Shown here: positions 1,857 through 64,000 of the stretch, piece by piece
Layout: each line of letters opens with the position of its first letter
How positions within the stretch are numbered: the stretch's first letter is position 1
Origin: Sulfurospirillum tamanense
GTDB lineage: Bacteria > Campylobacterota > Campylobacteria > Campylobacterales > Campylobacteraceae
Direction: 5' to 3'
Length of the DNA stretch: 64,000 nucleotides
NCBI RefSeq assembly: GCF_016937535.1
Contig: NZ_JAFHKK010000007.1
Location: 1 to 64,000, forward strand
The notes under the pieces: model-generated
What the model was told of the DNA's origin: nothing
Seen by the model: the letters and a program-made list of their open reading frames with translations, nothing else
Databases searched by the model: none
Program-made: the position numbers and the translations under genes

Positions 1857-3143
1857 CTATAGGTTGACAATTTTATCGACTTTGGGCTGGGACCGAAACA
1901 TCGCGCGCACCCCGTCCATGCCTGCATAAAACTCTCGCATCAACACCAAAGAAACATAACTCCCAAATTCTGTAGGGACAATCACACCATCAGAAATCTC
2001 AATAGCACCGGCAAGTTTTAGCATGGTAATTTCCTTACCCATTACCCGTTCTACATTGGTTTTGAGCATTTGATTAAACTGGGCAATATCTACCATGCCA
2101 TCGAACAAAGAGGTCATGAACTGATACTGCACCCGTTGCTTAGGAGTGAACGCACATGAAGCAATAACAGCACTCTCTTCGTTGGCTACCTTGTCCATAT
2201 ATTGGTCCAAATCAAAAGCATTAACGTACAAAGTGCCCTCCAAAAAGCTAAAAGAACCACTTCCAACACCCACATATTCGCTATGGCTTCCCACATATTC
2301 ATCACTTAGCTTCTCTTCTTGGCGAGAAAAAGCCCACCCATTAACAGGACGGTACTGGTTCATGGCGCCTCGAATGAGCTCATAAAAACGGTGTTCATTG
2401 TCACTTTTTTGCCCATCAAATGCCTTCGAGATAGACTTCTTCATAAGATTTGACTGCATGAGAGGGTAGGTTGTAATTTGATCAATATCCAACGCTTGCG
2501 CTGTAATTACATCACGTAAAAGCTGTTCTTCTGTTTGGCCTGGAAAGTTAAAAATTAAATCAATACTTGTGGTAGGCAAAATACCTGCCATTTTCAAAAG
2601 CTTTTCTTGAATTTGCGCGCCTGAGCCAAATTTTTCATACCGTCCAATGCGTTTTAAAAGCGTGTCATCAAAACTTTGCACCCCGATGGAAAGACGGTCA
2701 ATCAACCCACGAAAGCGACGCAAGCTATTTGGTGCAAGGTGGTTTGGGTCACTTTCACAAGAAACTTCTTTGATATTAAAAAGGCTTTTGGCGTATTCTA
2801 ACGTCTTAATAAGTTCTGGTTCATTTATAAGCGTTGTACCGCCACCTACATACAAGGTTTCAAAATCATACCCCTGCTCTTTTACCTTGCGCAATTCGTG
2901 CCGTACAAAAGAAAAATACTGTAATGCCTTTTCTTCGTTGTAATAAAATTTATGAAAAGAGCAGTAAGAACAAAACGTATGACAAAAAGGAATGTGAATG
3001 TAAAGCATGTAAGTGTGTCCAGGTTTTGCTTTGCGCTTTATCTCTTCTTTGACTGGCGTGATAACAAGGTGGTTAGCCAAAGACTTCCGCATAATTTTTT
3101 CAGCCCAAAACACTGTGGATGATTGAACAAAATTTAATGGCAT
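1857..3143 (-). CDS. Radical SAM coproporphyrinogen III oxidase-family (HemN/HemW/HutW-like) protein
   Basis: A 428-residue radical SAM protein. The SAM/[4Fe-4S] motif is C54-x3-C58-x2-C61 inside YIHIPFCHTFCSYCSFHKF and the glycine-rich motif GGGTT follows at about 100-104. The sequence YIHIPFC and SIGVQSFDD are signatures of the HemN/HemW family. HemN proper has an N-terminal extension and a second SAM site; this member more resembles HemW (heme chaperone) or the HutW/ChuW heme-degrading branch. AAGGAG sits 9 bases ahead of the chosen ATG. It precedes the NrfC gene on the same strand with a 22-base gap. Precise role uncertain. Confidence 0.8.
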   Translation of the reverse strand: MPLNFVQSSTVFWAEKIMRKSLANHLVITPVKEEIKRKAKPGHTYMLYIHIPFCHTFCSYCSFHKFYYNEEKALQYFSFVRHELRKVKEQGYDFETLYVGGGTTLINEPELIKTLEYAKSLFNIKEVSCESDPNHLAPNSLRRFRGLIDRLSIGVQSFDDTLLKRIGRYEKFGSGAQIQEKLLKMAGILPTTSIDLIFNFPGQTEEQLLRDVITAQALDIDQITTYPLMQSNLMKKSISKAFDGQKSDNEHRFYELIRGAMNQYRPVNGWAFSRQEEKLSDEYVGSHSEYVGVGSGSFSFLEGTLYVNAFDLDQYMDKVANEESAVIASCAFTPKQRVQYQFMTSLFDGMVDIAQFNQMLKTNVERVMGKEITMLKLAGAIEISDGVIVPTEFGSYVSLVLMREFYAGMDGVRAMFRSQPKVDKIVNL

Positions 3144-62766: not shown

Positions 62767-63243
62767 ATGCAGACGCTAACCCTCTCTTCAAACCATTTTC
62801 TTGACAATTTTGTACTGGGTGCCGAATTTGCTGCACATGCTGGCATCTCTGGCAATGCTTACCGCTACTGGAAAAATGGGGTCGCTGCCAAATTTGAAGG
62901 CTCGCGTACGGTTTTTTTACGCAAAGATACTATTCCCGCCAAACACACAAAAGCCCTAACACGTTGCACCTGTCTTGACGGACTTGTTCTCTCTCAAGCC
63001 TTTTGTGCTTTCACAGGCCTGGCTAGCTCACACCTCACCCAAAGTAACGGTTCAAAGCTCTATGAAAAACTTCACGTCAACACCCTCATGGGTATAAAAT
63101 TTGTCAATCTCAAACGCTTTTATGACGATTTGGGATTAGCCTATCATTATAATATTTATATTGAAAAGTGCCATTTTTTCGCCCCTTCACCCCTTGAAAA
63201 AAAAATCAAACTTACTGATACCTTGTGTGTTGGATATTATTAG
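62767..63243 (+). CDS. Orphan 158-residue protein
   Basis: Starts MQTLTLSSNHFLDNFVLGAE. I do not recognise a family. The segment FAAHAGISGNAYRYWKNG resembles a helix-turn-helix of phage or regulator type, but this is tentative. It has five cysteines (CTCLDG, AFCAF, EKCHFF, TLCVGYY) and a C-terminal region rich in aromatic residues. GGGGGATATTC precedes the ATG. It stands alone between the AEC gene and tRNA-Pro. Confidence 0.6.
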   Translation: MQTLTLSSNHFLDNFVLGAEFAAHAGISGNAYRYWKNGVAAKFEGSRTVFLRKDTIPAKHTKALTRCTCLDGLVLSQAFCAFTGLASSHLTQSNGSKLYEKLHVNTLMGIKFVNLKRFYDDLGLAYHYNIYIEKCHFFAPSPLEKKIKLTDTLCVGYY

Positions 63244-63392: not shown

Positions 63393-63470
63393 CGGGGTGT
63401 GGCGCAGTCTGGTTAGCGTGCTACCTTGGGGTGGTAGAGGCCGTGGGTTCGAATCCCGCCACTCCGACCA
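63393..63470 (+). tRNA. tRNA-Pro (GGG)
   Basis: 78 nt with encoded CCA. Anticodon stem CTACC/GGTAG, loop TTGGGGT, anticodon GGG. Acceptor CGGGGTG pairs CACTCCG. Confidence 0.95.
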
Positions 63471-63491: not shown

Positions 63492-63596
63492 TCATTGAAA
63501 CGCATGGTAAATACTCGAAGCAAGTATAGAGACTAAAAACACAACGCCTATTATTAGCCTTATATAAAATCGTCGGTATCTAGGATCTAATGCCAT
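63492..63596 (-). CDS. 34-residue membrane peptide
   Basis: Encodes MALDPRYRRFYIRLIIGVVF and a tail ending SSIYHAFQ. A basic N-terminus and one membrane helix (about 12-30). GGGAG lies 5 bases before the ATG, and a -10-like TATGAT preceded by TG lies about 40 bases upstream on the minus strand. Function unknown. Confidence 0.6.
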   Translation of the reverse strand: MALDPRYRRFYIRLIIGVVFLVSILASSIYHAFQ

Positions 63597-63713
63597 CATA
63601 ACTCCCTATATGTAATATCGTTTTTCAGTATCATACCAAACTTTGCAAGCCTTTCAATTTTCTTGACTTTTGACAATTCTTTCGTCGTTTCTTTTTGCTA
63701 ACATTCTCTTCAG

Positions 63714-63946
63714 TTTATCTCACTTCTTCTCCTGTGGGCTAAATCTAGGGACACACTATGCGTTTGTTTTGGGATTCTTGGTCGTTGCCACACACCTCGC
63801 CCAAGAACAGGAAGTGCCAACAAGACATACCTGACACTATGTCCACTCCTACACACACTAACGGCACTTCCTCTTCCCCAAAACAAATGTGCTTTTTCTT
63901 CCTCTGCCTTTGTTTTTAACGTCCATATAAGCACAAGTGAGATAAA
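63714..63946. ncRNA. Candidate structured RNA of about 230 nt (strand undetermined)
   Basis: Five perfect inverted repeats are nested without conflict: 63714-63725 with 63935-63946 (12 bp), 63763-63773 with 63877-63887 (11 bp), 63775-63781 with 63801-63807 (7 bp), 63809-63818 with 63863-63872 (10 bp) and 63824-63829 with 63838-63843 (6 bp). A long closing helix with a side hairpin in a central bulge and an apical stem recalls 6S RNA architecture. It is not tmRNA, SRP RNA or RNase P by their motifs. On the plus strand a T-rich tract follows the second helix; on the minus strand the side hairpin would be on the 3' side of the bulge. Confidence 0.5.
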
Positions 63947-63967
63947 ATTGCCGTCCGCTTATCCTGT

Positions 63968-64000
63968 AGAGAGGTGTCCGAGCGGTTGAAGGAGCACGCC
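63968..64000 (+). tRNA. tRNA-Ser (partial, cut by window end)
   Basis: AGAGAGG-TG-TCCGAGCGGTTGAAGGA is the acceptor and D-arm start of a serine tRNA; the sequence stops in the anticodon stem. The anticodon is outside the window. Confidence 0.85.

Follow-up and report, generated by a model that had tools for sequence, protein, structure and literature searches.

A conserved RNA is almost certainly encoded on the plus strand near the end of the window, the stretch of DNA analysed here, which covers the first 64 kb of a contig of 92 kb in the 2.46 Mb genome of Sulfurospirillum tamanense. The sequence comparisons give good support to its being a new small RNA of Campylobacterota, of about 180 nt and absent from the Rfam catalogue, and equally to a fold that has been conserved by evolution across two families. 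The region is found between tRNA-Pro(GGG) (positions 63393–63470) and tRNA-Ser(GGA) and is present as a single copy in its own genome. With Rfam 15 no family scores above the gathering threshold for the region, and a relaxed threshold gives chance matches only. The original prediction of an unannotated structured RNA at this position is strongly supported by covariation, by a conserved position and by a conserved promoter. The best explanation is probably a small RNA that acts in trans, is controlled by a Crp/Fnr-type regulator and would block Shine-Dalgarno (SD) sequences with its CUCC loops. Positions of the features are listed in the table.

Table. Features of the small RNA locus and its surroundings (positions in the window)
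Feature	Positions	Strand	Support or remarks
Crp/Fnr-like imperfect dyad TTGAC-N4-GACAA, centre about -41.5	63663–63676	+	pattern TCTTGAY-N4-RRCAATT in 12/12
-10 box TAACAT (gnTAnaAT type)	63699–63704	+	such a box in 12/12, 6–9 nt before the hairpin
Small RNA, conserved core	63712–63893	+	covariance models R1–R3; double changes at 37/43 pairs, 12 homologues
5' hairpin, loop UUCUUCUCCU at 63724–63733, anti-SD-like	63713–63744	+	94.7% of cells paired, 12 homologues
Long central helix, 5' arm (partner 63877–63890)	63760–63773	+	changes on both sides at 16/16 modelled pairs
Side hairpin, loop CACACACC at 63789–63796	63775–63807	+	double changes at 10/10 pairs where present
Second junction arm, containing inner hairpin 63824–63843 and unpaired CACUCCUACACACAC at 63844–63858	63809–63872	+	minimum free energy (MFE) fold
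Long central helix, 3' arm	63877–63890	+	covariation and MFE fold
Probable tRNA-Ser promoter, TAAGCACA-N7-TAAAAT, overlapping the right arm of the outermost repeat	63928–63948	+	same spacing in four family members and L069
tRNA-Ser(GGA), start	63968–64000, continues past the window end	+	ARAGORN on locus L002
Small ORF of 34 aa with a single membrane segment, oriented divergently to the RNA	63492–63596	-	homologues adjoin the RNA in four genomes and are without it in one

Homologues of the RNA comprise 12 distinct sequences from six genera (g1, g9, g12, g57, g65 and g82) in two families of the window's order. A DNA search gives L003 from the same genus and L004 from another genus, each adjoining tRNA-Ser, and the fourth homologue, L020, was reached via the neighbouring small ORF. 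The covariance model built from the first two sequences gives 54 bits for the third and 41 bits for the fourth. The four-sequence model identifies the second-family members L066–L069, with E values of 1e-6 to 1e-12 per genome, and the eight-sequence model four additional homologues, L078–L081. Identity to the window sequence outside the genus is only 45–54%. The relatives of the window in the named collection are uncultured 'Campylobacteraceae' or 'Campylobacterales' MAGs. A tRNA-Ser(GGA) gene is 80–750 nt downstream of 11 of the 12 homologues; at the twelfth, L067, the contig edge is just past perR. Since the covariance models hold no positional information, this recurrent position upstream of tRNA-Ser(GGA) counts for a real RNA family. 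Weak covariance matches at L070, L071, L072 and L074 (20–23 bits) are at loci without a tRNA and were excluded. Filtered covariance searches did not find the RNA in the remaining genera that belong to its family, nor in the second family's two largest genera, and as the filters drop weak matches (model R1 missed the genome of L020) absence elsewhere is unproven. An order-wide motif search with CTTCTCCTGTGRGYTAAAT, allowing 2 mismatches, gave matches that are nearly all due to chance; one of them, L035, is homologue L069, which was confirmed later.

Secondary structure modeling of positions 63700–63960 shows that the plus strand folds with -71.7 kcal/mol, compared with -47.7 kcal/mol for shuffled sequences (z = -6.0; none of 200 shuffles equals it). 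The minus strand has a z of -2.9. The inverted repeats that led to the original prediction are present in the sequence: an outermost repeat of 12 bp, TTTATCTCACTT/AAGTGAGATAAA (positions 63714–63725 and 63935–63946), a second repeat, TTTGTTTTGGG/CCCAAAACAAA (positions 63763–63773 and 63877–63887), and further ones, i.e., GGAAGTGCC/GGCACTTCC and others. The outermost repeat, which had been taken as a closing helix, pairs at 12 of 12 positions in the window, but only at 8, 5, 5 and 7 of the 12 in four relatives. A pyrimidine bias on the plus strand had also been pointed out; it is present, at 58%, but modest, being matched by about 10% of the window's 233-base stretches.

The conserved architecture has a long helix of 14–16 bp and a second arm that exposes CACACACUCCUA. 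The loop of the 5' hairpin carries CUUCUCC, which is invariant in all 12 homologues, and the motif CUCC(U/C)A of the second arm is likewise kept in 12 of 12; the register of the outer part of this arm differs among relatives. A side hairpin with a CACACAC loop is a feature of some members; in one related genus the side hairpin is cut short or missing, and the lack of the CACACAC loop in some relatives counts against the proposed explanation. A search of relatives for covariation had been proposed as a check, and it gives compensatory changes at most modelled pairs. In model-fitted alignments with a fixed 43-pair structure, the number of pairs with double-sided changes is 24 with four sequences, 35 with eight and 37 with 12. 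Between 94 and 96% of the cells are paired across the three alignments (94% with 12 sequences), compared with 42–52% after a shift of the partners by one or two columns, and none of 500 shuffles attains the observed covariation values. These alignments are fitted to the structure, and an independent MAFFT-only alignment was therefore made of the eight second-family sequences; RNAalifold again recovers the 5' hairpin and the long helix from it. In the plus reading the pair counts include 16 G-U and 2 A-C pairs, an excess that identifies the plus strand as the RNA. Taken with a folding z for the conserved core alone of -4.1 on the plus and -2.1 on the minus strand, and with the promoter on the plus strand, the sequence evidence shows the plus strand to be the RNA strand.

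The -10 box is of the consensus type reported for the phylum Campylobacterota (PMC3847290) and would place the transcription start at about position 63711. In all 12 loci, the TCTTGAY-N4-RRCAATT element is 21–22 nt upstream of this box. The consensus for Crp/Fnr sites in Campylobacterota is TTGA-N6-TCAA, and the sites at napA, norE and nosB of Nitrosophilus labii begin 48–49 nt before the start (PMC11539149). In the RNA promoter TTGA begins about 48–49 nt ahead of the presumed start, which is an activating position and the same placement as at the nap, nor and nos genes of that Campylobacterota species (PMC11539149). The downstream half-site is RCAA in 12 of 12 loci, in place of the published TCAA, so that the regulator is identified as a hypothesis, and there is about an even chance that the RNA is under Crp/Fnr-type control. 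The full pattern together with a -10 box has 3 copies in the genome, including the RNA promoter, and the reversed pattern has none. The two promoter elements, found together in 12 of 12 loci, suggest an independent transcription unit, as is expected for a trans-acting anti-SD small RNA. A search at the locus did not find an intrinsic terminator for the RNA.

The probable promoter region of tRNA-Ser(GGA) has a constant layout of its own, TAAGnACA-N7-TAtAAT, in the window, L003, L004, L020 and L069. The suggestion that the outermost repeat could instead be two outward-facing -10 boxes is half right: the right arm overlaps TAAAAT, the probable -10 box of tRNA-Ser.

In the proposed mode of action, an RNA of about 180–230 nt with a presumed 3' end would be transcribed independently from a sigma-70 promoter, with a start near 63711, and a Crp/Fnr-type regulator (Nss-like) that binds at about -41.5 would probably activate this promoter. 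Through the conserved fold, a short C/U-rich sequence would be exposed at each of two places: CUUCUCC in the loop of the 5' hairpin, and CACUCCUA in the second arm. Both may pair with the SD sequence (AGGAG) of presumed target mRNAs and thereby block translation under the inducing condition; for an Nss-like regulator this would be low oxygen or the presence of nitrogen oxides. An anti-SD trans-acting mode is the likelier interpretation of the two motifs, as conserved and unpaired SD-complementary sequences are what such an RNA should have, and the CUUCUCC loop and the CUCC(U/C)A arm provide them. Anti-SD sequences can pair with almost any ribosome binding site, which counts against the proposed mode of action.

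Small RNAs of similar properties are found elsewhere. FnrS of E. coli is an Fnr-activated small RNA, and the new RNA resembles it in having a Crp/Fnr-like site upstream of its promoter. However, the two sequences are unrelated, Hfq dependence is, as far as known, not applicable, and the regulator of the new RNA is a putative one. The LhrC-type small RNAs of Listeria (with RsaE, FsrA and RNAIII) have, like the new RNA, several exposed CUCC/UCCC sites complementary to SD sequences, and the C/U-rich loops of LhrC have been shown to bind SD sequences redundantly (PMC4132741). The new RNA differs from LhrC in that it has no sequence or Rfam relation to it, has a larger and branched fold and is from another phylum. 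RepG of Helicobacter pylori is from the same phylum, has a C/U-rich loop and is trans-acting, as is proposed for the new RNA, but its target is a G-repeat and the reports of it are from H. pylori (PMC8295292, PMC8322730).

The neighbouring genes bear on other interpretations. A Fur-family gene (perR-like) is located between the RNA and tRNA-Ser in seven of the eight second-family loci, and in L067 a convergent peroxiredoxin gene comes first and the perR-like gene follows; the Pfam FUR domain was confirmed on L066. The RNA is co-oriented with and near perR or tRNA-Ser in most loci, and together with the lack of a detectable terminator this would fit a cis-acting leader, i.e., a 5' UTR element or attenuator, of either gene. 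Such a leader is nevertheless unlikely. The gene downstream changes between tRNA-Ser, perR and, in L067, the convergent peroxiredoxin gene, which argues against a leader element and for an independent RNA. In addition, tRNA-Ser has its own conserved -10 region, and the RNA is without an expression platform.

Directly upstream of the RNA is a gene for a 158-aa protein (positions 62767–63243, plus strand), found in five loci from both families (the window, L003, L069, L079 and L081). The copies from the window and L069 have no Pfam matches. In the remaining second-family loci a cysteine desulfidase/serine dehydratase-like gene is found in its place.

It is also improbable that the RNA serves as a protein-binding regulator or scaffold, e.g., as a sponge, with the loops as protein sites. 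The strong fold and the CACACAC repeats in loops are consistent with such a role, but there are few GGA loops, so that the RNA is not CsrB-like, and the conserved motifs are complements of the SD sequence.

The small ORF next to the RNA belongs to a family of membrane peptides of 32–35 aa, with the consensus ..RRFYIRLIIGxVFLLSILASSIYHAFQ, present in five genomes of the group and without Pfam or NCBIfam matches. It raises the question of a type I toxin-antitoxin pair, such as zor-orz or tisB-istR, where the 34-aa peptide would be the toxin and the RNA its antitoxin. In four family members the peptide is conserved next to the RNA, in divergent orientation, and its SD sequence could pair with the CUCC motifs. 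However, a type I antitoxin should have specific complementarity to the adjacent toxin mRNA, and pairing with the peptide's ribosome binding site is no better than with the starts of 56 window ORFs used as controls (fractions as good, 0.27–0.59), which disfavours a toxin-antitoxin pair. The peptide is present once without the RNA, in L061, where it is near peroxiredoxin and perR genes, and it was not seen beside the second-family RNAs among ORFs of at least 75 aa, or among smaller ORFs in L066 and L069, where these were listed. The probability of an antitoxin function is thus small.

The likeness to 6S RNA suggested in the original prediction does not hold, and it is very improbable that the RNA acts as a 6S RNA, or as a second one, by trapping sigma-70 RNA polymerase. 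The length is similar and both RNAs are heavily structured, the closing helix is found in the window sequence alone, and RF00013, the Rfam model of 6S RNA, performs poorly on the 6S RNAs of the phylum. A scan with RF00013, the check proposed at the outset, gives no matches in the region, the window or the genome, a weak test as the 6S RNA of the phylum escapes this model. However, the same genome already has the 6S locus of the phylum: RF01069, the 'purD motif', precedes purD on contig C3 with a score of 83.1 bits, whereas the new RNA is on C7, and in H. pylori and C. jejuni the region upstream of purD is reported to code for 6S RNA (PMC3847290). What is conserved is a free 5' hairpin with a branched helix, in place of a closed rod around a central bubble, the invariant parts are loops and not a bubble, and the closing helix is not conserved; the relatives L020 and L081 are clearly without any closed rod fold. 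The 6S identity is rejected on both locus and fold. Rfam 15 keeps RF01069 as a cis-regulatory motif, in contrast to the report that the region encodes 6S RNA (PMC3847290; locus L082, positions 2812–2943, minus strand).

A mobile element with terminal repeats was rejected, as the region is a single copy in its genome and the same neighbour is kept in relatives, and so was a coding sequence: relatives have lost the plus ORF (MSTPTHT...), and a reading by eye shows an interruption of the 74-codon minus ORF in L003.

In published comparisons, C. jejuni and H. pylori were found to have no non-coding RNAs in common beyond housekeeping RNAs, with most candidates restricted to one species (PMC3847290, PMC3656092). 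More tentatively, the RNA may be a global regulatory RNA responsive to redox state or nitrogen oxides, controlled by a Crp/Fnr-type regulator and independent of Hfq, that would turn off many mRNAs via two SD-blocking loops and be conserved across families in a phylum thought to share only housekeeping RNAs between genera. A covarying small RNA in six genera and two families gives the group a shared riboregulator to study. It would also provide a case of small RNA regulation in a group whose best-studied member, H. pylori, is without Hfq and ProQ (PMC8322730), and the site in its promoter predicts when the RNA would be made.
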